Source: Paenibacillus humicola
GTDB lineage: Bacteria > Bacillota > Bacilli > Paenibacillales > Paenibacillaceae
Direction of reading: 5' to 3'
DNA: 64,000 nucleotides
NCBI RefSeq assembly: GCF_028826105.1
Contig: NZ_JAQGPL010000001.1
Span: 2,878,501 to 2,942,500 of the forward strand
Shown: positions 48,415-63,202 of the stretch, piece after piece
Numbering within the stretch: the first letter of the stretch is position 1
How the letters are laid out: each line of letters starts with the position of its first letter
Notes under the pieces: model-generated
Told to the model about the DNA's origin: nothing
What the model saw: only the letters and a program-made list of their open reading frames with translations
Database searches by the model: none
Translations under genes and position numbers: made by a program

Positions 48415-48894
48415 TTGAAATTCTTTCGGTATGCGAACAAGATTTGAATAAGTCTGCCAATGGATTGCGGGGAGCTGCTGCTTCCGTTAGCGGGCAGATC
48501 TGCGGTTCAAACGTATCGTATCGGACACCTCACCTTTGTTCATGCATGCCTATCACTAACCCCGTCTGTTTTCTCCACCATCTTTTCTCTTCTCTCACGC
48601 TTTGCTAAAGGTGAAATCCTGCGAAATCATGACCTTCTCGAAAACGCCGCACGCACTGGCTTCGGTAGATTTAGGAGGAGGGGACGGTTCCGGGTTAATT
48701 TTACGTCAATAAAACGAACATAATGTCGAATCTGCAACAGCGTTCGGCTTTATCCGAACTTCTTCTCTCTTTAATTGAGTTATATACTCTCACATTTAGA
48801 ATGGATTTGGCTTCAAAATCCGATTATATAACATTTCATGTTATATAATCTCCAAAGTAAGCGCTTTAATTGCTTAATTCTTTGTCGAAACCTA

Positions 48895-48923
48895 TTGAAA
48901 TCTAATTTTCTTTGTAATAAAAT
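48895..48923 (+). promoter_or_regulatory. Promoter of the LacI-type regulator and cluster
   Basis: TTGAAA (48895-48900), 17 bases, TAAAAT (48918-48923). Confidence 0.6.
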
Positions 48924-48935
48924 GAAATCAGAAAT

Positions 48936-48953
48936 TGTGTAAACGTTTAGACA
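48936..48953. promoter_or_regulatory. LacI/CcpA-type operator
   Basis: TGTGTAAACGTTTAGACA: a ten-base perfect palindrome TAAACGTTTA with outer TGT/ACA arms, 12 bases past the -10. It fits self-repression by the LacI protein and also nearly matches the CcpA cre consensus, so catabolite repression is an alternative. Confidence 0.65.
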
Positions 48954-49044
48954 AATGGTCTTAATAATATTACGGAAGTGGCGTTTTTGATTGGGAAACC
49001 TATGTAAAAACGTTATGATAACTTTCCGGAGAATGGAGGTAGCT

Positions 49045-50058
49045 ATGACAAACCGGAACATTACGATTAAAGATGTAGCCAAGCAAGCCAACGTTTCCGT
49101 CGCCACCGTCTCCCGGGTCATCAACGGGTTGGACCGCGTGAGCGATGCCACACGGAAGAAGGTGCTTAAGACCATACAAGAGCTGAACTTCGTTCCGAAC
49201 ACGATGGCTGCTTCAATGGTGAACAAGAAGACGAAAATGCTCTCGGTCGTGGTGCCGAATATTCAGAATTCCTTTTATACGGCGGTAATCGAGGGTACTG
49301 TAGAAGTGGCCAAGCGGGAAGGATTCTTTACGCTGGTCCTCTCCACCAATGGGGACGAGAGTGAGGAAGAAGAATTTCTGGAGAGCTTCCTGGGAAAAAA
49401 TGTGGATGGCATCATTTTGATCGGGAGCCACAAGGAAGCGGAGTTCTATCGGGGGATTCAGAAGCCAACCATCCTCGTGGATCGCTACCTCAATGACTGC
49501 GGCCATGACGGCGTCATAATCGACAACTATCGCGGTGCTTATGAAGCGACGAGACATTTTATCGAGTTCGGGCACGAACGGATTGCCATCATTGACGGCG
49601 AGCATGACTTCAACGACGGCAAGGATCGATTCTGGGGCTACCAGCAGGCGATGCTGGAGAGCGGGCTTTCGCCCGATCCCGATTACCACAAGCAGGGACA
49701 CTGGGCGGAAGCCGACGGCTATCGGCTGACAATCGAACTGCTGCAATCGGAACGTCCCCCTACGGCGATTTTCGCCGCCAATAACGTACTGTGCAAAGGT
49801 GCCATCCGGGCGATTCGTGATTTGAATATGCAGATAGGAGAGGACATCTCGCTCATCGGCTTCGACGAAAACGAACTGGCCCAGTTCGTGAAGCCGCAAG
49901 TAACCGTTGTTCGAAGGCCCACCAGGGAGATGGGGGTGCAAGCTGCGGAAATGCTCGTTCGTAAAATCAGGGACACCCCGCAGGAACACGCCAACCCCAT
50001 GCGGGTCGTTCTCGGAGTGGAACTGATGAAGTACGGCTCCGTCAAGAAGCTCAAGTAA
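49045..50058 (+). CDS. LacI family transcriptional regulator
   Basis: A 337-residue repressor. Residues 4-24 hold the helix-turn-helix (IKDVAKQANVSVATVSRVIN), followed by the hinge and a periplasmic-binding-protein-like sensor (MLSVVVPNIQNSFYTAVIEG; ISLIGFDENELAQFVKP). ATG 49045 follows GGAGGT; the frame is open to 48991. It heads the cluster 50267-58675 and an operator precedes it, so it likely responds to the sugar or nucleoside-like compound imported by that cluster. Confidence 0.93.
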   Translation: MTNRNITIKDVAKQANVSVATVSRVINGLDRVSDATRKKVLKTIQELNFVPNTMAASMVNKKTKMLSVVVPNIQNSFYTAVIEGTVEVAKREGFFTLVLSTNGDESEEEEFLESFLGKNVDGIILIGSHKEAEFYRGIQKPTILVDRYLNDCGHDGVIIDNYRGAYEATRHFIEFGHERIAIIDGEHDFNDGKDRFWGYQQAMLESGLSPDPDYHKQGHWAEADGYRLTIELLQSERPPTAIFAANNVLCKGAIRAIRDLNMQIGEDISLIGFDENELAQFVKPQVTVVRRPTREMGVQAAEMLVRKIRDTPQEHANPMRVVLGVELMKYGSVKKLK

Positions 50059-50266
50059 GCCGCGAGCTGGACGCGAACGGTGGGATATCAGACGGCAAAA
50101 CCGCGATATCAGCGTCGTTGTGGAAAAGGTTCTCGTACCGCCCTCCAAAAAAGATTTGGTACTCCCAAGACTCTGCCATTTACGCTTAGTCTTGTTAAAT
50201 ATACCTAAAAACAGCTAAACAAAAGCCCCAATCTCCACGATCGACGGGAAAAGGGAGGGAGTTACC

Positions 50267-51781
50267 ATGGAACATCCGGTTCTGACAATGGAAGGAATCA
50301 GTAAGGAATTTCCCGGTGTGAAGGCTTTGTCCAATGTTCATTTCGAATTGTATCCGGGTGAGGTTCACGCACTGATGGGAGAAAACGGTGCCGGTAAGTC
50401 AACTTTGATGAAGATTCTTTCCGGGGTCTACACAGCTACGAAGGGCGTCATCCGGCTGAAGGGCAAGGAGGTCGCGTTTGGCAGCCCGCTTGACGCCCAA
50501 AAACAGGGCGTATCGATTATCCACCAGGAGTTCAATTTGTTCGCCAACTTATCGGCTGCCGAGAACATCTTCATCGACCGGCCGGAGATGGTCGGCCGGC
50601 TTGGGCGGATCCGATGGTCCAAGCTGTACGATGAAGCGCAGCGGCTCGTTGACTCCATCGGCGGCGCAGAGATCGACGTCCGCCGGGAGGTTCGTCACCT
50701 CGGGGTGCACAGTCAGCAGGTCATCGAGATCGCCAAAGCTTTGTCCTTCCAGTCGGACGTGCTGATTATGGACGAGCCTTCGGCTGCTTTGCCTGAGAAC
50801 GAAGTGCAGAAGATGTTCGACGTTGTAAAACGGCTGAAGGAGCAAGGTGTGGCGATCGTCTATGTCTCGCACCGTATGAAGGAAATTTTCGAGATTGCGG
50901 ACAAGGTCACGGTGCTTCGAGACGGTGCCAAGATCGACACCAAGCATATCGGCGAGGTTACGGAACAGAGCCTGATCCAGATGATGGTAGGCAAGGAAGT
51001 GAACCGGCTCTATCCGGTTCGTGATCAAAAGCCCCGCGAGGAGCATGTCCTGAAGGTCAGGAACCTGTCGCTGGATGCCTCTCATTCCGTGTCGTTTGAT
51101 TTGCGAAAAGGCGAAATTCTCGGCTTGTTCGGAGTTCCGGGCTCCGGCTCCCACACGATTGCCGAGAGGTTGTTCGGCCTGAAGCGTGGAACAGGCGACA
51201 TTCTCGTCAACGGTGAAGCGGTACGGATTCACCGCCCCAGCGACGCTAAAACGAAGCGAATCGCCTACGTGCCGCCGGACCGCCACCGTCAAGGCATCAT
51301 CAAGCCGATGTCCATTCGCCAGAACCTCTCCTTTCCTCTCCTTCAGAAGCTTTCGAAGGGACCGATGCTGGACGAAAAGCGCATCAAACAGATGAGCCAG
51401 GAGTATTTGGACAAGCTGCGGATTAAAGCGCCGAGCGATCAGCAGAGCGTCGATTTCCTGAGCGGCGGCAACCAGCAGAAGGTGGTTATCGGTAAGTGGC
51501 TGGCGGCTCAACCGGAGATTCTGATTCTGGAAGAGCCGACCCGTGGTGTCGATGTCGGAGCCAAGGCGGAGATTTACAGCATCATTCACCGGTTGGCGCA
51601 GGAGGGCCTCAGCATTCTGCTGATCTCATCCGAGATGCCGGAGGTGATCGGGCTCAGCGATCGCATCCTGGTTCTTTACAAGGGCGAGATCGTACATGAA
51701 TTCGCCCGTGGGGAAGCCGATCAGGAAGAGCTGCTCAGACGCGCTTCGCATCCACGCGCTACGGAAGGAGAACCGCTATGA
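50267..51781 (+). CDS. Ribose-type ABC transporter ATPase (RbsA-like)
   Basis: A 504-residue protein with two fused ABC domains, the norm for this class. Domain 1 has Walker A GENGAGKST and Walker B VLIMDEPSAAL. Domain 2 has the degenerate Walker A GVPGSGSHT, as in RbsA, and an intact signature and Walker B (LSGGNQQKVVIGKWLA; LILEEPTRGVDVG). ATG 50267 follows GGGAGGGAG. The genes from here to 54727 overlap by four bases each, an unbroken translational coupling chain. Confidence 0.95.
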   Translation: MEHPVLTMEGISKEFPGVKALSNVHFELYPGEVHALMGENGAGKSTLMKILSGVYTATKGVIRLKGKEVAFGSPLDAQKQGVSIIHQEFNLFANLSAAENIFIDRPEMVGRLGRIRWSKLYDEAQRLVDSIGGAEIDVRREVRHLGVHSQQVIEIAKALSFQSDVLIMDEPSAALPENEVQKMFDVVKRLKEQGVAIVYVSHRMKEIFEIADKVTVLRDGAKIDTKHIGEVTEQSLIQMMVGKEVNRLYPVRDQKPREEHVLKVRNLSLDASHSVSFDLRKGEILGLFGVPGSGSHTIAERLFGLKRGTGDILVNGEAVRIHRPSDAKTKRIAYVPPDRHRQGIIKPMSIRQNLSFPLLQKLSKGPMLDEKRIKQMSQEYLDKLRIKAPSDQQSVDFLSGGNQQKVVIGKWLAAQPEILILEEPTRGVDVGAKAEIYSIIHRLAQEGLSILLISSEMPEVIGLSDRILVLYKGEIVHEFARGEADQEELLRRASHPRATEGEPL

Positions 51782-52740
51782 AGCGAATCGCTAACATTCA
51801 CGAAGCGCCCATCATTCTGTTTACGCTCATAGTAATCGCCCTGTTTTCCAGTCTGTCGTCAGACTTTTTCCAGTTCGACAACGCGAGGCTGATATTGGAC
51901 CAGAACATTTCATCCTTTATTGTTGCTATCGGCATGACGATGGTCATTTTGCTGGGGGGGATGGACTTGTCCGTCGGCTCCGTGCTGGCGCTCACCGCCA
52001 CCGCCGTCGGCGTATTTCTTAATCACGGCATACATCCGTGGATCGCAGCGCTGCTCGGCGTCTGTATCGGCGTGTTGTGCGGAGCTGTGAATGGCTACTT
52101 CATCGCGATGCGGAAAATACCCGACATTATCGTGACGCTCGCTACCATGTACATTTTCCGGGGTGTCGCGGTCGGAATCAGCGGCGGCACCTGGATGACG
52201 AACTTCCCGGATGGCTTCAGGTACTTCGGGCAAGGCAGCCTGTTTGGCATGTCATTTCCGCTGCTCGTTGCCATCGCGCTGATCGCCTTCTTCATCTACC
52301 TCATGAAGTTCACCCGAAGCGGTCGAAGAATTTATGCGATCGGCGGGAACGGCTCGGCTGCCAAGCTTGCCGGCATCAGTGTAGCCCGAACGAAGTTTAA
52401 GGTATACGTTTGGACCGGCATGCTGGTCGGAATCGCAGCCGTGATCTTCGCCTCCAAGGTGGGGAGCGTGCAAGCCTCTACGGCAGGAAGCAGCTTGTCC
52501 TTCGAAGTGATGGCCGCGGTCCTGATCGGCGGGGGCAGCATCTTCGGCGGCGTCGGCACGGTAGCGGGCACGATGCTGGGCGTGCTATTTATGGGCATCA
52601 TCAAGAACGGCTTGATCATCTCCAAGATTTCTCCGTTTTGGGTAGATGCCAGCACCGGATTTCTGATAATTCTGGCAATTGTTATCAACACGTTGCAGCG
52701 CGTCAGACAAAACAAGAGAAAGGAGAGTGATTTGGTATGA
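51778..52740 (+). CDS. Ribose-type ABC permease (RbsC-like), copy 1
   Basis: A 320-residue membrane permease of the BPD_transp_2 family, with MVILLGGMDLSVGSVLALTA and AGISVARTKFKVYVWTGMLVG, the segment that contacts the ATPase, and FEVMAAVLIGGGSIFGGVGT near the end. Overlaps the ATPase gene and the next permease by ATGA. Confidence 0.94.
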   Translation: MKRIANIHEAPIILFTLIVIALFSSLSSDFFQFDNARLILDQNISSFIVAIGMTMVILLGGMDLSVGSVLALTATAVGVFLNHGIHPWIAALLGVCIGVLCGAVNGYFIAMRKIPDIIVTLATMYIFRGVAVGISGGTWMTNFPDGFRYFGQGSLFGMSFPLLVAIALIAFFIYLMKFTRSGRRIYAIGGNGSAAKLAGISVARTKFKVYVWTGMLVGIAAVIFASKVGSVQASTAGSSLSFEVMAAVLIGGGSIFGGVGTVAGTMLGVLFMGIIKNGLIISKISPFWVDASTGFLIILAIVINTLQRVRQNKRKESDLV

Positions 52741-53690
52741 GCGTGCGGACAATTATGCTTTCGTTCAGGCAGAACAAGCTGCTGGTCCAGCTGTTCCTGC
52801 TGCTCTTCATTCTCGTCTTGTTTAGCATCCTATCCCCCTACTTCCTGTCCGTCACCAATTTCATGAACGTCTTTAACCAGATGGTTGAAGTCGGCCTGAT
52901 TGCCATCCCGATGACGATGATCGTCATCTCGGGCGCAATGGACCTTTCGGTCGGCTCCATTCTCGGCTTCTCTGCCGTCTGCATGGGAATCGCCTACGAG
53001 CACGGCCTGAACATCTGGGCCTGCGTTTTCGTCGCCTTGCTGGCGGGATTGCTGTGCGGAGCGGTCAACGGCTATCTGATCGCCCGGCATCGCATGCAGG
53101 CGATTGTGGTGACGATCGGAATGCTGGTCATGCTTCGCGGCCTGGTCTACGTTCTCAACGAGGGCAGGCCGATAAGCGGCTATCCGGACAGCTTATATTT
53201 CCTGGGTCAGCAATACATCGCCGGCGTTCCGTTCAACGCGATTTTTCTCGCGGTCATGTTCCTATTGGGCAACTTCGTCATGAAGCGGACGAGATTCAGC
53301 ACCTACGTATACGGCATCGGCAACAACGAAGAAGCGGTTCATTATTCCGGGGTGTCCGTCGTGCGCATACGATTTATCTTATTTCTGCTCAGCGGCTTGT
53401 TTTCGGCAATGGCGGGTGTCTTCCTGGTTTCGCGTCTGGCAAGCGCAGAAGCGACATCAGGTACCAATATAGAACTGGATGTTATCACAGCTACATTGAT
53501 AGGAGGCACACATATTTTCGGGGGGAGGGGGAGCTTATCGGGAACATTCATCGGCTTGTTGATCATCGTGTTCCTGCGCAATGGGCTGAATTTGCTGGGC
53601 GTATCGGTTCTCTATCAATCGGTTATTCTGGGTGCATTGCTGCTCATTGCCGTTGGCAGCAAACAATTTAATAGGGGGTCATCTCAATGA
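52737..53690 (+). CDS. Ribose-type ABC permease (RbsC-like), copy 2
   Basis: A 317-residue permease of the same family (ISGAMDLSVGSILGFSAV; YSGVSVVRIRFILFLLSG). Two different permeases imply a heterodimeric channel, as in rhamnose or autoinducer-2 type importers and unlike the RbsC homodimer. Confidence 0.94.
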   Translation: MSVRTIMLSFRQNKLLVQLFLLLFILVLFSILSPYFLSVTNFMNVFNQMVEVGLIAIPMTMIVISGAMDLSVGSILGFSAVCMGIAYEHGLNIWACVFVALLAGLLCGAVNGYLIARHRMQAIVVTIGMLVMLRGLVYVLNEGRPISGYPDSLYFLGQQYIAGVPFNAIFLAVMFLLGNFVMKRTRFSTYVYGIGNNEEAVHYSGVSVVRIRFILFLLSGLFSAMAGVFLVSRLASAEATSGTNIELDVITATLIGGTHIFGGRGSLSGTFIGLLIIVFLRNGLNLLGVSVLYQSVILGALLLIAVGSKQFNRGSSQ

Positions 53691-54727
53691 GAAAAGTTGC
53701 TTTGTCGGTTCTGACGGGCGTTATGGCATTTAGCTTGGCGGCATGCGGAAGCACCAGCAAGAACAATTCTGCATCGTCAGGCAGCGGCGGTTCGGACGCT
53801 TCGTCGCCCAGCGCTTCCCGCACCTACTTCATCAATCCGAAGTCCATCGGTCCGGCCTATTGGGCGGCTGCCCAAAAAGGCGCTGAACAGGCGGCCGGTG
53901 ACCTGAACGTAAAGGTCGTCTACAACGCGCCGACTGAAGCGGACTCCTCCAAGCAGATCAACATGATTCAAGATATGCTGACGCGTAAAGTCGACGGAAT
54001 CGGCGTGTCGCCCAATGACGCGAAGGCGGTTGGCCCGATCTTCAAGAAGGCGGCAGGACAGAACGTCAAGATTGTTACCTGGGACAGCGACGCACCGGAT
54101 TCGGATCGCCAATACTATGTTGCTCCAGATACCGATAAGGCGATCGGCGAGCTGCTGGCCAAGACGATCGGCGACGAGATCGGAGGCAAGGGTAAAGTGG
54201 CCTTCATGGTGGCCGGGCTGGGCGCGGAAAACCAGATCGCCAAGTCTGACGCGGCAAAGGCGTACTTCACAGCGAACTATCCGGACATCCAAGTCGTGAC
54301 GACCGTCGCCAGTGATGACGACCAGCAGAAGGCATATGCCAACGCGCAGAACCTGATTAAGACGTACCCGGACCTGCGGGGCATTATTGGCTTCGCTGGC
54401 GGTGAACCGCCGGCTGCCGCAGAAGTTGTTGAGCAATCCGTCAAGGACGGCACTTTGAAGCAAGGCCAGGTTGCAATTACCGGTATTGCTGTGCCGAGCG
54501 TCGTGAAGAACTACATTCACAATGGCACGATTAAAACAGACATCATCTGGGATCCGGGCAAGCTGGCGTACACGACGGTGTATGCACTTGACCAACTGGC
54601 GCAGGGCAAGGAGATCACCGACGGCATGGACATTCCAAAGGTCGGCAAGGTGAAGGTGGACGGTCAAAATATCTTCATCGGCTCTCTGCAGGTAACGAAG
54701 GACAATGTGGACAGCTTCGACTTCTAA
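53687..54727 (+). CDS. Sugar-binding lipoprotein (RbsB/LsrB-like)
   Basis: A 346-residue type I binding protein. The lipobox LAAC gives Cys20, followed by a Ser/Gly tether. The core reads YFINPKSIGPAYWAAAQKGAEQAA and IQDMLTRKVDGIGVSPNDAKA, closest in style to LsrB/RhaS binding proteins. The ligand is unknown. It is the fourth gene in the coupled importer set. Confidence 0.93.
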   Translation: MRKVALSVLTGVMAFSLAACGSTSKNNSASSGSGGSDASSPSASRTYFINPKSIGPAYWAAAQKGAEQAAGDLNVKVVYNAPTEADSSKQINMIQDMLTRKVDGIGVSPNDAKAVGPIFKKAAGQNVKIVTWDSDAPDSDRQYYVAPDTDKAIGELLAKTIGDEIGGKGKVAFMVAGLGAENQIAKSDAAKAYFTANYPDIQVVTTVASDDDQQKAYANAQNLIKTYPDLRGIIGFAGGEPPAAAEVVEQSVKDGTLKQGQVAITGIAVPSVVKNYIHNGTIKTDIIWDPGKLAYTTVYALDQLAQGKEITDGMDIPKVGKVKVDGQNIFIGSLQVTKDNVDSFDF

Positions 54728-54768
54728 ACACAGCGGTTGAAGCCACAGCATTAGGGAGGCAATCATTC

Positions 54769-55278
54769 ATGCAGCATCAAGTGGAAATCGAGGAGTTGAC
54801 GCCGAAGGCGTTCGCTCCTTACGGTAAAGTGATCGATTTGCCCGGAGGCGCTCCTTCCAAGACCGGAGACGGCTGGGATTGCTGGAGCTATATCCAAATG
54901 CTCGACGTGGACGTGCCGATCGGCTTCGGCCTGGTCGTCACCCGGCGGCGGGAGCCGGTCGTGGATGCGATGGAACGGCACGTTAGCCGCGAAGAGCTGC
55001 TGCTCACCTTCGATCGTGAGATCATTCAGCCGGTCGCCCGGTGCGCGGACATCGACGACCCGGACGAGAGACCGGATCCCGCCACGGTGAAGTGCTTCAA
55101 GATCAAGCCCGGACAAGCGATCGTGATCGACCGGGGAGTCTGGCACAGTCCGGCGTATGCGGCTGCAGACGACGCACGATATCTGTTCGGCATCGAGAAG
55201 AAGCCTGATAAATTTGGCGACGAGATGGTCGATCCGTGGGTGAAATTCCAAAATGACGATACGATTCGATTCGGTTAG
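54769..55278 (+). CDS. Ureidoglycolate lyase (AllA)-like protein
   Basis: A 169-residue cupin-fold protein. EIEELTPKAFAPYGKVIDLP is the AllA-type start; VTRRREPVVDAMERHVSREE and FKIKPGQAIVIDRGVWHSPAY carry the His residues of the active pocket. True AllA releases urea from ureidoglycolate in allantoin breakdown, but no other allantoin gene is present, so a related lyase on a different N-acyl or ureido compound is as likely. ATG 54769 follows GGGAGG, 42 bases after the importer. Confidence 0.8.
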   Translation: MQHQVEIEELTPKAFAPYGKVIDLPGGAPSKTGDGWDCWSYIQMLDVDVPIGFGLVVTRRREPVVDAMERHVSREELLLTFDREIIQPVARCADIDDPDERPDPATVKCFKIKPGQAIVIDRGVWHSPAYAAADDARYLFGIEKKPDKFGDEMVDPWVKFQNDDTIRFG

Positions 55279-55296
55279 CCGGGAAGGAGCAACAGT

Positions 55297-56607
55297 ATGG
55301 ATCAGGAACAACGCATTATGCAATGGATCGACGGGCACCGGGAGGAGATTTTGGCATTTTTGCAACAGCTCATCCGTATTCCCAGCGTAAACCCGTGGTT
55401 CTTCGATGAACCGGCGCCTTCAAAAGAGAAGGATCTGCAGGAATTTCTGCTCCGGAAGCTGTCCGGGCTGGGGGCGAGCACCGAGCTCTGGGAACCGGTC
55501 GCCGGCGATTTAAAGCAATACGAAGGGATGGCCGGGTATTACCCGGGGAGAGACTTCACGGGCAGACCGAATCTGGCCGCGACCTTCGAGCCGGAAGCTA
55601 AAGGCAAGTCGCTGCTTCTGTTCGGCCACATCGATGTCGTCATGGCGGGGAGCAAGTGGACCGTCGATCCGTTCGAAGGCAAGATTGTGGACGGGAAAAT
55701 GTACGGGCGCGGCACGGTTGACATGAAGGGCGGCGTCGCCGCCATGATCATGGCGATCGAAGCGGTTATCCGCAGCGGCTTCAAACCTAAAGGCTCCGTT
55801 GTCGTTGGGACGGTCGTCGACGAAGAAGCCGGCGGGATGGGTGCGCTGGACTTTATCCACCATGGCTACCGTACCGACGCATGCATCCTGACCGAGCCGA
55901 CTTCTTTGACGATCGCACCACTGTGCAGAGGAATACTGTGGGGCAAGATTAAGGTTCAGGGACGCAGCGGACATATCGAGATGCCGCAGGCGGACTGGAA
56001 GGACGGCGGCGCAGTTGATGCGATCAAGAAGGCACGGTATCTGCTGGACAAACTGGACATACTCAATGAGGACTGGGCGGCGCGAAAGACGCATCCGTAT
56101 CTGTCGATTCCATGCCAGGTGCATGTCGCGAAGCTCAACGCCGGCGAGTACCCTACTTCCTTCGCTAACGAGGCGGAGATCGTGTTCAACGCGCAGTACC
56201 TGCCGTCCGAACGCGACGAGAAGCTGGTCGGCGGCAAAGTGAAGAAGGAGCTGACGGACTTTCTAGCTGCAGCAGCGAAGGAGGACCCGTGGCTGAGCGA
56301 GCATCCGCCGGAGATCGTGTGGCTGGTCGATGCCGACTGCGCGGAGACCGAGGCCTCCCACCCTTTCGTTCAGACCTGCGTCCAGTCACTGAAGGCGATC
56401 GGCGAAGAAGGCAAGATTGAAGGTCTTGGCTTCCATACGGACATGGGCTGGCCCGTGAATGTCGGCATTCCGACCATAAACTTCGGTCCCGGTGATCCAA
56501 GCCTGGCTCATCACAGCGACGAATATACACCAGTGGATGAAGTGATTCAAGCGGTCAAGATGATCGCTAAGACAATCATCGACTGGTGCGGCGTGGAAGA
56601 GGCCTGA
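55297..56607 (+). CDS. M20 family metallohydrolase (ArgE/DapE-like)
   Basis: A 436-residue di-zinc amidohydrolase. Metal ligands lie in LLLFGHIDVVMAG (His, Asp), GRGTVDMKGGVAA (bridging Asp), VVDEEAGGMGALDF (Glu pair) and a C-terminal DPSLAHHSDEYTP (His). Family members remove N-acyl or carbamoyl groups from amino compounds. It follows the AllA-like gene by 18 bases and so probably acts on the same imported molecule. Confidence 0.9.
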   Translation: MDQEQRIMQWIDGHREEILAFLQQLIRIPSVNPWFFDEPAPSKEKDLQEFLLRKLSGLGASTELWEPVAGDLKQYEGMAGYYPGRDFTGRPNLAATFEPEAKGKSLLLFGHIDVVMAGSKWTVDPFEGKIVDGKMYGRGTVDMKGGVAAMIMAIEAVIRSGFKPKGSVVVGTVVDEEAGGMGALDFIHHGYRTDACILTEPTSLTIAPLCRGILWGKIKVQGRSGHIEMPQADWKDGGAVDAIKKARYLLDKLDILNEDWAARKTHPYLSIPCQVHVAKLNAGEYPTSFANEAEIVFNAQYLPSERDEKLVGGKVKKELTDFLAAAAKEDPWLSEHPPEIVWLVDADCAETEASHPFVQTCVQSLKAIGEEGKIEGLGFHTDMGWPVNVGIPTINFGPGDPSLAHHSDEYTPVDEVIQAVKMIAKTIIDWCGVEEA

Positions 56608-56672
56608 CTCTCCGCACGTCGCCTCGCGTAGGGGCGGAGACGTCCCGATTAGAAATGGAGGTCATAGCAATT

Positions 56673-57404
56673 ATGAAAATATTGTTTGTTGGTGAATCCT
56701 GGGTTATCCATATGATTCATACGAAGGGCTACGACAGCTTCACCTCGACCAAGTATGAGGAAGGCGCGACGTATTTGTTGTCCTGTCTTCGGGAGAACGG
56801 AATAGAATTCACCTACCTGCCGGCACATGAAGTACAGGTGCGCTTCCCTCAGTCACTCGAGGAGCTTCAAGCTTACGATGCCATCGTGCTCAGCGACGTC
56901 GGCGCGAATACATTCCTCCTGCAGAATGCGACCTTCTATCAGATGCAGGTCGTTCCGAATGCGTTGGAGCTAATTAAACAGTTCGTGGCGGATGGCGGAG
57001 GCCTGCTTATGGTCGGCGGCTACCTGTCATTCATGGGCATCGAGGGCAAAGCCAATTACAAGAACACGGTGCTTGCCGAGGTGCTTCCGGTAGTGATGAC
57101 TGACGGGGACGATCGTGCGGAGATGCCGAACGGTTTTGCGCCAATCACGGCCGCGTCCCATCCGCTGGTGGATGGCTTGGGAGCATGGCCGAAGCTGCTC
57201 GGATACAATCGGTTGACCGCTAAGCCCGGCGCGGAGAAGCTGCTCGAGAACGGAGACGACGCAATCTTGACCGTCGGCCGCTTCGGAGCGGGCAAGACGG
57301 CGGCTTTCGCCAGCGACTGCTCGCCGCACTGGGGCTCGCTGGAGTTCATGAACTGGGAGCATTACTCGGCGTTTTGGTCCAATCTTATTCGGTATTTGAA
57401 GTAA
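56673..57404 (+). CDS. Class I glutamine amidotransferase-like protein
   Basis: A 243-residue protein whose opening KILFVGESWVIHMIHTKGYD and core LKQFVADGGGLLMVGGYLSF-like segment match the putative amidotransferase family PF07090. No catalytic Cys-elbow of true amidotransferases (GxCxG) is visible, so a binding or trehalose-utilisation (ThuA)-like role is possible. ATG 56673 follows GGAGGT; the frame is open to 56586 inside the M20 end. Distal member of the LacI cluster. Confidence 0.7.
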   Translation: MKILFVGESWVIHMIHTKGYDSFTSTKYEEGATYLLSCLRENGIEFTYLPAHEVQVRFPQSLEELQAYDAIVLSDVGANTFLLQNATFYQMQVVPNALELIKQFVADGGGLLMVGGYLSFMGIEGKANYKNTVLAEVLPVVMTDGDDRAEMPNGFAPITAASHPLVDGLGAWPKLLGYNRLTAKPGAEKLLENGDDAILTVGRFGAGKTAAFASDCSPHWGSLEFMNWEHYSAFWSNLIRYLK

Positions 57405-57760
57405 CGTCTGCCAAGTGGCGGCAATTAAGGCGCACAAAGTTGGTCACCGGACTGAAAATGGAACGGCAGTGAAAGTGAAATTTTATTTTTTGCACTTGCG
57501 TTTAGAATCAATGACGCCCTTATTTGGGCGTCTTTAAATTTTTTTGAATTGATCAAATGACATTTCTACAGAATGCACATGTAGTGTTATGCAAAATTAC
57601 AACAAGTGCCAATTGGACGAAACAATAGCGTCACAATAGGGATTCAATTAATGACAATACAAGTTACAGCGAAGGGTTTTTCATGCCATATCCATGAACC
57701 TACGAATCGCCATTCCAGTAAATGTAAATCCTACAAAGTGAACTGAACGGAGGAATGAAG
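57405..57760 (+). other. Intergenic region before the ribokinase gene
   Basis: Apart from a terminator at 57513-57545, nothing recognisable. The ribokinase gene may therefore have its own promoter, which I could not place. Confidence 0.45.
57513..57545 (+). terminator. Rho-independent terminator after the amidotransferase-like gene
   Basis: GACGCCC (57513-57519) pairs with GGGCGTC (57526-57532), then TTTAAATTTTTTT. Confidence 0.8.
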
Positions 57761-59007: not shown

Positions 59008-59290
59008 CTACTGGTTTACCACCGTCATTTCTCGAATAAAATCGTCGAAACGCTGTTGAGCCTCTTCTACAGAACAGATAGAATAAAGATAGAGCGCTTC
59101 CATTTTTAAATGCGGGAAGGAGCTCTCCATTGCGGCATTGTCGTAATGCCGGGACATGCTCATCTTGGCACCAAACTTATGACATAATGTCGCGGTATTC
59201 ACGGGACGTGTACTGGCACCTTCGATCGTTGTGACGATCAAGCCGGTCACGTTTTTCTTGTGTTGAAGGCATTGCTGCCGTTTCTTATCC
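59008..59290 (-). pseudogene. IS3-family transposase (OrfB) remnant
   Basis: On the minus strand, a frame encoding GAKMSMSRHYDNAAMESSFPHLKMEALYLY (here split for quoting: MSMSRHYDNAAMESSFPHLK, then MEALYLY) matches the C-terminal rve/DDE segment of IS3-group transposases. Upstream, in a neighbouring frame, QYTSREYRDIM is the expected preceding motif, so at least one frameshift lies near 59190. The N-terminal half and OrfA are missing. No terminal inverted repeats or target duplication were found. A dead fragment. Confidence 0.7.
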
Positions 59291-59551
59291 GCGGGTTTGT
59301 TACGCTTCTGCAGGTTCTCTGAGACCCGGCGCAATCCCGTCCATTCGGTTGGAGTACTGCTTACGCCGTATTTATCGAACAGATGCCCATCTCCTGCATG
59401 AGTTACACCGCTTAAAGCTTCTCGCAAAACCTTCCTGCTGCTGGACAGCTTGTATGCATTAGACGAAAATCCTTCTATTATGGTGGTAGACAGCTATTAA
59501 TAGCCGCCAATTCGCTGCATCTCTATCCATGCAAACAAAAGGACAACCGCC

Positions 59552-59749
59552 ATGCATCCCGGCAAACGAATAAGAAATTTTTGGGGAAAACTAGGGGACA
59601 TGCGGATGGAGCGCAAGCTGCTGCTCGTCTTCCTGGTGCTGATTACGCTGCCGCTGACGTTCATCGGGTATGTCTCCTATCGGAATTACTCGGAGTCGGT
59701 CGAGCAAACGACGATCGATTATTCGACCAACATGCAGACGGTTGTCTAA
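59552..59749 (+). pseudogene. Sensor histidine kinase, N-terminal stub
   Basis: About 65 residues: a basic start, then a membrane helix (LLLVFLVLITLPLTFIGYVS) and YRNYSESVEQTTIDYSTNMQ, the normal opening of YesM-type kinases. The frame stops at 59747, and the next bases belong to a binding protein, so a deletion removed the rest (more than 500 residues in intact relatives). Confidence 0.75.
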
Positions 59750-59921
59750 AGCTGTCGTATCGGCAGTACTTGCTGCGGGTCTTGCAGTGTGCGGAAGCAG
59801 CGGCGGGAACGGCGGCCAGGTGGATACCGGTTCGGCTAACGGAAAGACTAACAATTCAACAAACGGATCAACCGGCAGCGGTTCTGACGGGGCGGCTGCC
59901 GATGGAGGAAAAATAAGCTGA
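59742..59921 (+). pseudogene. Sugar-binding lipoprotein, N-terminal stub
   Basis: In the next frame, LSKAVVSAVLAAGLAVCGSS and a long Gly/Ser/Asn linker form a lipoprotein signal and tether. The lipobox is abnormal (Val before Cys). The frame ends after ~59 residues and passes directly into permease sequence, so the whole binding domain is deleted. Confidence 0.7.
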
Positions 59922-60513
59922 ACACGAGGCTGAAGGGCAAATATTTTTTTCGGCTGCTGCTGTTTCTTCCTTATATCCTGAACGGTGTGGCCGTAGCGTA
60001 TTTGTTCGGATACGTATTCGATACGACGAACGGATCGCTCAATTTCTGCTCGGGAAGCTTGGATTGCCTTCGGATACAAGCTGGCTCGGCAGCGAAAGCT
60101 TCGTCAACTACATGCTGGCGTCGATCGGGTTCTGGCGGTTTATGGGCTTTAATATGGTCATCTATCTCACCGCTCTGCAGTCGATCCCGTCCGACCTTTA
60201 CGAAGCGGCTTCGATCGACGGGGCGAACGGTTGGCAGAAATTTATATTTATCACACTGCCGAACATTTACAAAATTATCGAACTGAATTTGTTCCTGACG
60301 GTTTCCGGGGCGCTTGAAGTGTTTGACCTTCCGTTCATCCTGACGAACGGCGGACCGGCGGGAGCCAGCGATACTTTCGTGCTGAAAATCGTCTCGACCG
60401 CATTTCAGTTCAGCAATTACGGCATGGCGTCGGATATGAGCGTGGTGCTGCTGCTCTCCGTCGTCATCGTGCTCGGGATTCAGCGTCTTCTGCTCAGCAA
60501 AGGAGGGAAATAA
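59912..60513 (+). pseudogene. Sugar ABC permease (MalF type), truncated and frameshifted
   Basis: The reading starts in mid-protein (LKGKYFFRLLLFLPYILNGV, normally after helices 1 and 2) and shifts frame by one missing base around 60041-60048. It then continues as SDTSWLGSESFVNYMLASIG to an intact C-terminus with EAA loop EAASIDGANGWQKFIFITLP and LFDLPFILTNGGP-like ending. The first ~100 residues are lost. Confidence 0.8.
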
Positions 60514-60516
60514 ACC

Positions 60517-60721
60517 ATGGCCGTGCGAAATCCGGTTTGGACGGCAACCAAATATATATCGCTCTTGATCGCGGCATTCGCCGTTCTGTTTCCGCCCTAT
60601 ATCATTCTCGTGAAAGCCTTCAAGTCCAAGGCTGATTTTCAGAACAGCCCGGCGATGGCATTCCCGAAAAGCATCGACCTCGAAAACTTCGCGCACGCCT
60701 TCCAGCAGGCGGATTTCGATC
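60517..60721 (+). pseudogene. Sugar ABC permease (MalG type), N-terminal stub
   Basis: ATG 60517 behind AAAGGAGGG encodes helix 1 (YISLLIAAFAVLFPPYIILV) and AFKSKADFQNSPAMAFPKSI up to FAHAFQQADFD, a normal MalG-type start. At about 60720 it fuses into response-regulator sequence in another frame. Confidence 0.8.
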
Positions 60722-61231
60722 GTGCTCTTAAGCGGTTTCGGCGAATTCGAGTACGCCCGCACAGCGATCCGCTTGGGCGTGCGGGATTATTTACTCAAGC
60801 CCGTCGACAAGTCGGCGCTTTTCGAGCTTCTGGGCAAAATCCGGCAGGAGCGGGAGGAGGCATCATCCGGTTCCGAAGCCGAAGAAAGGACTGCCGCCGA
60901 AGGGGATCCATATGTCATCGAGCGGATCAAGGAAATTTTGGAGCACGAATATGACAAAAACTTCGAGCTCGAACGGCTGGCCGATACTGTGAGCATGAAC
61001 GCCAGTTACCTTAGCCGCCTGTTTAAAAACAAAACCAATATGACGATTACCGATTATCTGATCCATATTCGGATCGAAAAGGCGAAGCAGTATTTGACCG
61101 GCCGCCCGGAGCTCAAAAACTATGAAATTTCGCACCTGGTCGGCTACAGCGACCCGGTCTACTTTAACAAGCTGTTCAAAAAAATGGTCGGGGTTACACC
61201 GCGCGATTATAAAGAAAAAAACCGCTCCTAA
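60722..61231 (+). pseudogene. AraC-type response regulator, C-terminal part
   Basis: The frame enters in mid-receiver at VLLSGFGEFEYARTAIRLGV, keeps the receiver Lys (YLLKPVD) but has lost the phosphoacceptor Asp. It then has a short linker and a complete AraC DNA-binding region (LADTVSMNASYLSRLFKNKT; HLVGYSDPVYFNKLFKKMVG). The DNA-binding half could in principle still be made as an independent protein, but no good start site is visible. Confidence 0.75.
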
Positions 61232-61322
61232 CCGGCCGTGCAATACGATACCAATCGATTTGGCAGGATAATGCAGATCAATGTTGAATTCTCTGGAAGA
61301 AGCAGATTACCAGAGGTGAGGT

Positions 61323-62231
61323 ATGGAACAATTTGATGATCAGGCAGCGGGTTCAGCTATAAAAGACTCATTGGCAGGTTTGGAGTGGCATGAAACAACC
61401 CCGATTTTGAACACCTTGATTACTTCAGAAGGTGAGCTGACGTTTAGCACGCTTTCGCCGGGGCTTGAGGCGGATGTGGTTAAGATCACGCTCGGGGAGA
61501 ACCATTTTGTGCTGAAGGTGTGGAACAAACGCTCGAAACCCGACGTCCTGCGCCAATATCGCCTTTTGGACGCTCTATATCGCAAGGGAATTCGCGTTTC
61601 CGAGCCGATCGGTTATGGTCGAACCGAAACGGGAGACGATGTGCTGCTGACCCGCTATCACGGTACTCCGGTAACGAAGGTGAGTCCGAGCATTTTCAAG
61701 AAAATCGCTGCAGTATTAGCCGATATTCACCGACTGCCTCCAGATGGATTAGAGGAAAGCTTGCTGGCTGATCATGATTTTGCAAAGTATTTTTTTCCAG
61801 GGATCGAGGCAATTCCGGCTATGCAAAAGGAACTGATCCGCCTGATCGCTTCCGCGGACATGAAAATGGACCGGATTATTCACGGCGATTTCAATTTAGG
61901 CAATATTCTTGAAGAGAATGGACAATACACGGTAATCGACTGGACGAACGGGCAGCTGGGGGAGCCTAGGTTTGATCTGTCGTGGGCTTGTCTGCTTTTG
62001 CGTGTCTATTTGAGCGATAGCAAAAGCCTTGCTTTTTTACATAAATATCAAGAGGAAATAGGCGCAGCGACAGAAGAACTGGAAATTTTCGAAGCGCTTG
62101 CCTGTCTGAGGTGGCTGTCGTACGACCGAATCGGCGGAGTGCCCAAACACGCGGATACAATGAAGAAGGTTAGAAAAGTCATCAGGGATAATCGATTTTT
62201 AAATGAGAATTTGCTGCTGTATGAGAGCTGA
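61323..62231 (+). CDS. Aminoglycoside/fructosamine-type phosphotransferase
   Basis: A 302-residue kinase-fold protein. The catalytic loop is RIIHGDFNLGNILEENGQYT (His-Gly-Asp...Asn) near residues 180-199, and TVIDWTNGQLG holds the metal-binding Asp. The N-lobe has ENHFVLKVWNK with the ATP-anchoring Lys. APH-family proteins phosphorylate antibiotics, fructosamines, choline or other small molecules; nothing here selects among these. ATG 61323 follows GAGGTGAGG. Confidence 0.85.
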   Translation: MEQFDDQAAGSAIKDSLAGLEWHETTPILNTLITSEGELTFSTLSPGLEADVVKITLGENHFVLKVWNKRSKPDVLRQYRLLDALYRKGIRVSEPIGYGRTETGDDVLLTRYHGTPVTKVSPSIFKKIAAVLADIHRLPPDGLEESLLADHDFAKYFFPGIEAIPAMQKELIRLIASADMKMDRIIHGDFNLGNILEENGQYTVIDWTNGQLGEPRFDLSWACLLLRVYLSDSKSLAFLHKYQEEIGAATEELEIFEALACLRWLSYDRIGGVPKHADTMKKVRKVIRDNRFLNENLLLYES

Positions 62232-62239
62232 AAAACGGA

Positions 62240-62452
62240 AAGAAGCCCAAGATTGCAGTCGATGAGAAAGTGCCCACGACAAAGATCGATGTCAACAAAA
62301 AGGGGGCAGGGGGCATGAAAATGGATTTCGAGGTCGGAATTAAGAATCATTTTGATAACGTTAGAGCCGAATAAGAGAAAAAAGTGAATGATGAACTTCG
62401 AAAATTAATTAATGATGTTAATGGAAAATACATCGTTGACCAGAATATCGAT
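62240..62452 (+). pseudogene. Decayed gene leading into tandem repeats
   Basis: One frame reads KKPKIAVDEKVPTTKIDVNK, then ATG 62315 with MDFEVGIKNHFDNVRAE, a TAA (62372), then EKKVNDELRKLINDVNGKYI and VDQNID before the next stop. The continuous, Lys/Asp-rich sense suggests one former protein with a Tyr-to-stop change. The last ~15 codons are the unit that is repeated downstream. I do not recognise the family. Confidence 0.45.
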
Positions 62453-62536
62453 TAATGATGTTAAAGGAAAATACTCCGTTGACCAGAATTTCGATTAATG
62501 ATGTTAAAGGATAACACTTCGTTGACCAGAATATCG
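62408..62536. repeat. Three tandem copies of a 43-bp unit
   Basis: Copies at 62408-62450, 62451-62493 and 62494-62536 each start ATTAATGATGTTAA and end GTTGACCAGAAT(A/T)TCG, differing at a few positions. 43 is not a multiple of three, so repetition breaks the reading frame. Confidence 0.9.
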
Positions 62537-62689: not shown

Positions 62690-63202
62690 TTGAACGATTT
62701 TTCGGCGATTATCGAGCAATACTTGCAGCATCTGGACCGTTATTCGATCGAGCAGCTGCGATTTAAATGCAAAGAAGACGTATGGTCGATCGGGCAAATG
62801 TATATCCACGTCATCGAAGTGGCGAAAGAGTACATCGGACATATTGAAACCTGCTCCAAGGCATCACGAGATGAGCCTGAAGGCAAGACGGAAGATGGAA
62901 CGAAAGCGCTCGCCGAAAAAGAGTGGCCCAATATTCGTGTGAAACTTGAGGAATCGCCCAACGCGACCAAAAACCCCGAGAGCATGGATGAAATTATTGC
63001 TGGTCTGGAGCAAGTGCTAGAGAAGTTAGCACTGTGGGAGAGATTCGCAGACGAGGCGAATCCGGCGTGCAAGGTGCGGCATGGCTGGTTTGGCTGGCTC
63101 AACGCGCGTGAATGGTTTGAGATGGTTGGTATGCACAGCAGGCACCATTTGCGCCAGAAGGCGAGGCTGGACGAGAAATTGGCGGCGGCAGGCATAGGAT
63201 AG
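62690..63202 (+). CDS. DinB-like / DUF664-type protein
   Basis: A 170-residue four-helix-bundle protein of the DinB superfamily. The metal-site His residues are probably in WSIGQMYIHVIEVAKEYIG (first His) and MVGMHSRHHLRQKARLDEKL (two later His). Such proteins include thiol-dependent transferases. The start is TTG 62690 behind GGGGAG. Single gene with its own terminator. Confidence 0.85.
   Translation: MNDFSAIIEQYLQHLDRYSIEQLRFKCKEDVWSIGQMYIHVIEVAKEYIGHIETCSKASRDEPEGKTEDGTKALAEKEWPNIRVKLEESPNATKNPESMDEIIAGLEQVLEKLALWERFADEANPACKVRHGWFGWLNAREWFEMVGMHSRHHLRQKARLDEKLAAAGIG

Follow-up and report, generated by a model that had tools for sequence, protein, structure and literature searches.

Probable remnant of a carbohydrate ABC-uptake operon reduced by deletions in Paenibacillus humicola

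The window analysed here, a stretch of 64,000 nucleotides of the P. humicola chromosome, contains at 59552-61231 pieces of five genes that follow one another on the plus strand: a kinase, a binding lipoprotein, permease 1, permease 2, and an AraC-type response regulator. The segment is located at 2.938 Mb in a genome of 5.93 Mb (two contigs, 99.24% complete) and is present in a single copy; the six further DNA matches in the genome, of 46-95 bp, all fall inside the permease 1 region. Such a run of pieces on one strand had been claimed in the original prediction, and blastn, alignments, Pfam, and a profile recovered all five in the order proposed. The features are as follows, with the evidence for each gene piece in brackets.

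59008-59427, minus strand: C-terminal part of an IS3-family transposase remnant, upstream of the relic (partial match to NCBIfam NF033516, blastn)
59552 to about 59737, plus strand: kinase N-terminus (blastn, alignment, protein identity)
About 59737-59742, plus strand: junction 1, where codon ~62 of the kinase meets codon ~4 of binding protein B in another frame
About 59742 to about 59916, plus strand: putative N-terminal piece of binding lipoprotein B (profile score, alignment)
About 59915-59921, plus strand: junction 2, where codon ~68 of binding protein B meets codon ~97 of permease 1 in another frame
About 59919 to 60513, plus strand: permease 1, residues ~97-294 to the stop (blastn, PF00528, alignment)
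60517 to about 60716, plus strand: permease 2 N-terminus, residues 1 to ~67 (alignment, reading frame; no Pfam match of its own)
About 60713-60722, plus strand: junction 3, where codon ~67 of permease 2 meets codon ~81 of the response regulator in another frame
About 60722 to 61231, plus strand: C-terminal part of the response regulator, from residue ~81 (PF12833, PF00165, protein identity)

The kinase piece comprises about 62 N-terminal codons of a sensor histidine kinase. In blastn it gave blocks of 131-194 bp with 72-82% DNA identity to the kinases of ten out of ten relatives, and at the protein level it is 76% identical to the P. sacheonensis kinase over residues 20-69. The permease 1 block shows 72-75% DNA identity to orthologues in blastn and matches PF00528 with 51 bits; the one-base frameshift that had been claimed for this gene was placed at about 60036-60040. 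The regulator piece carries the last part of the receiver and an AraC-type helix-turn-helix (PF12833, 75 bits; PF00165, 64 bits), and shares 59-73% protein identity with five longer ORFs of relatives, 248-300 aa in length (L030 71%, L031 62%, L034 73%, L036 66%, L039 59%). Pfam places BPD_transp_1 in 60064-60513 and the AraC-type helix-turn-helix in 60722-61231; at an E-value of 0.001, the kinase, binding-protein, and permease 2 pieces have no match. The weakest of the five assignments appears to be the binding-protein piece, which has a signal sequence, an altered lipobox, and an Asn/Ser/Gly linker, and which gave neither a blastn match in the relatives nor a Pfam match. Its score against a profile of 28 orthologous N-termini (obtained from 28 of the 34 loci tried) is a modest signal of 16-17 bits with a bias correction of 5.5-7.1, as compared to a maximum of 7.7 bits among 200 shuffles; two N-termini of binding protein A score 10.0 and 7.0 bits. 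None of the pieces contains an in-frame stop; the open frames are broken by the three out-of-frame junctions and the one frameshift. The GC content of the pieces is 51-57% vs. 52% for the window.

The rest of the genome yielded no intact orthologue of either the kinase or binding protein B; the further matches there are at most 37% identical for the P. sacheonensis kinase and at most 36% for the binding protein. Permease domains occur in at least 150 places of the genome (of 291 candidates, 150 were scored), and no internal stop occurs among the 150 listed. Two of 67 histidine kinase matches, at 2436040-2436969 and 3510607-3510975, contain one internal stop each (TAA and TAG) and are possibly other pseudogenes.

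To the left of the segment, 48828-57403, which holds the second sugar system of the window and its neighbours, is collinear with a stretch of the congener G009 at 5.83 Mb, with 72-74% identity over about 8.5 kb, and the collinearity ends before the ribokinase at 57755. On the right, an APH-domain gene at 61262-62231 lies in a block that is 85% identical to G013 and begins about 30 bases past the stop codon of the relic. Since a G009-collinear side and a G013-like block flank it in this way, the relic lies near a seam. The APH-domain protein has six NCBIfam matches, all far under the cut-offs, and is not recognised as a resistance gene. Between this gene and an ORF at 62690, a 43-base, AT-rich unit occurs three times in tandem, head to tail (90% matches), at 62408-62536. 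No RNA family reached its gathering score in 57-64 kb. The IS3 fragment that had been pointed out upstream is real: it covers positions 268-349 of the 369 of NF033516 with 37 bits, below the cut-off of 160, has no Pfam match, and shows 71-75% DNA identity to elements in congeners, at least five copies of which are present in each of G005 and G009. A role of this fragment in the collapse of the operon was not shown.

Intact homologous operons, to which the original prediction had proposed aligning the segment, were found in relatives. A blastn search with 58.6-62.3 kb against stretches from ten related genomes returned kinase, permease, and regulator blocks, and in seven of the ten (G018, G004, G009, G020, G022, G015, and G003) these three blocks are collinear on one strand, the collinearity in G015 and G003 being pieced from two adjacent stretches each. 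The remaining three depart from it: the kinase of G021 is on another contig, that of G023 separates the permease block from the regulator block, and in G017 the kinase block is the only one. Close copies of the permease block are present in 7 of 21 congeners. A wider genome scan yielded 50 operon loci, some species having two. The order binding protein B, permease 1, permease 2 is kept in 49 of them; in the other, L111, the permease has no match to the reference. In 28 loci a small response regulator directly follows permease 2 (one of these, L094, is cut by a contig end), and in five (L070, L071, L073, L095, and L097) the kinase sits between permease 2 and the regulator. Thirteen loci (L098-L110) are of a more distant type in which the kinase and regulator precede the binding protein, and in three (L076, L084, and L092) the regulator was not found.

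The native order is kinase, binding protein A, variable genes, binding protein B, permease 1, permease 2, and small regulator. It is intact, with a full kinase and binding protein A upstream, in P. lycopersici (L081) and P. sacheonensis (L085), and the same intact order occurs in G018, G004, G009, G015, and G003. Of these, G018 and G004 probably represent the same two species; proteins of L027 match those of L081 at 100%, in line with this for G018. The L085 operon is a compact form of 7.5 kb whose Pfam domains are dCache-HAMP-His_kinase-HATPase in the kinase, SBP_bac_1 in both binding proteins, BPD_transp_1 in both permeases, and Response_reg with HTH_18 in the regulator. With a binding protein of sugar type and two BPD_transp_1 permeases, the domains mark the intact operon as a predicted carbohydrate uptake system, which we take to be of the CUT1 type; its two-component system is presumably YesM/YesN-like. 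Against the carbohydrate-type NCBIfam models, binding protein B gives weak matches under the cut-offs. The succession kinase-SBP-permease-permease-regulator, which had been put forward as differing from that of the second system in the window, is indeed present in the segment, and it is simply what many Paenibacillus normally have in operons of this type. Five of the six operon genes are represented in the relic, and binding protein A leaves no piece that could be seen.

Comparison with the intact operons also defines what is missing. The blastn blocks break at the three junctions originally put at 59742, 59912, and 60720: kinase blocks stop at 59727-59737 and permease blocks begin at 59918-59945, while the permease blocks that reach junction 3 stop at 60710-60714 and regulator blocks begin at 60713 at the earliest. 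The kinase block of G017 begins earlier than those of the other relatives. Each gap corresponds to one contiguous missing block in the intact operons, of about 3.3, 1.5, and 1.0 kb relative to L085 and about 5.4, 1.5, and 0.9 kb relative to L081; the first deletion took the complete gene of binding protein A as well. The proposed origin from one operon by repeated internal deletions is therefore borne out, given the matching order and strand and the single block per gap. The expression "in-frame-order" used for these deletions should not be taken to mean that they were in frame: as worked out by hand from the frames, the reading frame changes by 1 from kinase to binding protein, by 2 from binding protein to permease 1, and by 1 from permease 2 to regulator. 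Microhomology of 1-3 bases at the junctions is possible, the nearest intact relatives found having only about 75% DNA identity, and one complex rearrangement could mimic three deletions.

Two other origins of the junctions were discarded. An insertion of unrelated fragments at random is ruled out by the order and strand shared with the intact operons. A selected gene fusion is ruled out by the change of frame at all junctions and by the separate gene matches in relatives: fused proteins were not seen, and in 49 of the 50 loci the two permeases and binding protein B each match on their own over nearly their full length. An open permease 1 frame of 800 bases or more is present in 48 of 48 loci checked (L094 and L111 were left out).

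The chromosomal position of the relic adds a complication. The operon comes directly after an ECF-sigma gene in G018, G009, and G004, and in G015 and G003 the kinase follows this gene at a distance of about 7 kb. Farther downstream of the operon in G018, G009, G015, and G003, though not within the G004 stretch, there is a locus that we assume to be macAB-like. In P. humicola the ECF-sigma gene is at 4.626 Mb and the macAB-like locus is 3 kb away; the two are separated by a gene of 569 codons, and blastn detected nothing of the operon between them. The relic lies away from the ECF-sigma-linked operon site of these five congeners, so relocation, an extra copy, or acquisition of the operon may have to be added to the deletions. 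In G014, G016, and G002 the ECF-sigma and macAB-like genes have no operon between them, which leaves both loss from this site and later insertion into it possible. G017 (G017:C1:9001-29000, L152) has a lone kinase in the interval from the ECF-sigma gene to the macAB-like locus, with 69% identity over residues 9-610, and the other operon genes were not found in this 20 kb stretch; perhaps loss from the site common to the congeners is seen here at a different stage. Neither the operon nor the macAB-like locus was found in the 8.6-14.5 kb around the ECF-sigma gene of G008, G012, G005, G019, G001, G007, and G013, and the corresponding stretch of G006 covers only 2.1 kb. The argument from position is weakened by G020 and G021, in which the permease block is present and a close ECF-sigma match is absent (best 54.5 and 61.7 bits), and by the 45 of 49 loci that lack those flanking genes nearby at >45% identity: the place of the operon varies across Paenibacillus.

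These observations bear on the possibility that the operon was acquired or copied already broken, by horizontal transfer or transposition of a fragment, and did not decay in place. The off-site location speaks for it, as does the fact that none of 11 flanking genes of the window (50.3 kb on) lies beside the operon in 49 loci (L062-L110), where only ABC-ATPase matches of 25-29% were obtained; the adjoining IS3 remnant points the same way. Against it, the same junctions occur in none of the relatives examined, the GC content of the pieces is close to that of the window, and in a tree the pieces adjoin the operons of four Paenibacillus loci (L072, L074, L081, and L085), the exact node having no support value. 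On balance, we regard this origin as unlikely.

The state of the leftover frames was examined in a codon-position tree of 31 sequences, with a combined ratio taken from the permease and regulator pieces and the kinase left out. The ratio of changes at positions 1 and 2 to those at position 3 is 0.115 on the window branch vs. 0.149 for the whole tree; by piece (tree value in brackets) it is 0.124 (0.092) for permease 1, 0.145 (0.170) for permease 2, and 0.087 (0.180) for the regulator. For these permease and regulator pieces the window branch thus reveals no overall loss of codon constraint and no rise in the ratio, and hence the decay looks young. Nearly all divergence of the pieces seems to be older than the decay. 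Dating by synonymous change was ruled out, as the window branch, with 1.18 substitutions per site at third positions, is close to saturation there. At residues otherwise invariant, permease 1 has 5 changes in 92, where none of 34 relatives exceeds 1 in about 88; permease 2 has 2 in 15, where the maximum among 34 relatives is 1; and the kinase has 1 in 26, where the maximum among 8 relatives is likewise 1. The regulator has none in 35; among its 30 relatives the highest value is 8 in 43 (L066), followed by 2 (L095). Only permease 1 shows a clear excess, and in the permeases these changes may be a weak sign of relaxation.

The same figures raise the question of whether one of the pieces, most obviously the C-terminal part of the regulator, is retained as a functional gene, which could for example encode a free-standing AraC-type DNA-binding protein beginning at GTG 60722. 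Its open frame of 169 codons retains an intact helix-turn-helix domain, the GTG is preceded by an AGGCGG stretch whose end is 9 bases away, the invariant residues of the piece are unchanged, and its position ratio is the lowest of the three measured. Yet the permease 1 rate, as calculated by hand, predicts only about 2 changes in 35 sites, so that zero is not significant; moreover, the frame begins within the cut receiver domain, and a young pseudogene would look alike. A kept function is, in our estimate, quite improbable. Hardly any credence is given to a collapse of the assembly, in which the real chromosome would carry the whole operon and the assembler would have dropped three blocks, since the assembly is nearly complete in two contigs, no long repeat lies at the junction points within 58.6-61.4 kb (a search of retained sequence, to which the lost blocks are invisible), and three separate drops would be needed in addition to the independent frameshift in permease 1.

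We conclude that the segment is very probably what remains, without function, of a single CUT1-type ABC-uptake operon for carbohydrates under two-component control, reduced by deletions. The operon would have lost its usefulness, after which at least three illegitimate deletions, by non-homologous joining or very short homology, would have removed most of it and outpaced the point-mutation wear of the pieces left over. It is less certain that, before the collapse, the operon or one copy was located elsewhere than in the five congeners. A bolder version, which we consider unlikely, would have the collapse proceed rapidly or as a burst: the operon would first have moved off the congeners' site, then undergone three kilobase deletions while gaining no more than one frameshift and a few point changes, and the DNA-binding half of the regulator might still be made. 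The P. humicola genome is the smallest of the 22 searched in the genus group (the others are about 6.0-8.3 Mb, rounded), by a small margin.

Thus, the relic amounts to a cluster of pseudogenes of the ordinary kind, from an operon type already known, and it shows no new mechanism; bacteria commonly lose genes through large deletions. Its value is that of a clean example, in which operon pieces set against intact copies show several large deletions outrunning point decay, and of a case for gene-loss studies in Paenibacillus, where a close permease block occurs in only some of the congeners and G017 has the kinase alone at the shared site. In comparison with the operons of P. lycopersici and P. 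sacheonensis, the genes, their order, and their strand are the same, the kinase and permease blocks having 72-82% DNA identity; relative to the latter operon, the relic lacks about 5.8 of 7.5 kb and every gene kept is truncated. G017 also has a partial operon, but there the kinase is whole and stands at the site shared by the congeners, whereas the fragments of the relic lie elsewhere. In passages of Kuo and Ochman (2010, PMC2916853) on pseudogenes under deletional bias, large deletions are presented as the likely main route of complete removal. The relic resembles the pseudogenes described there in its large deletions and differs from them in that several truncated genes of one operon remain adjacent, and this is what allows several losses to be read from a single segment.
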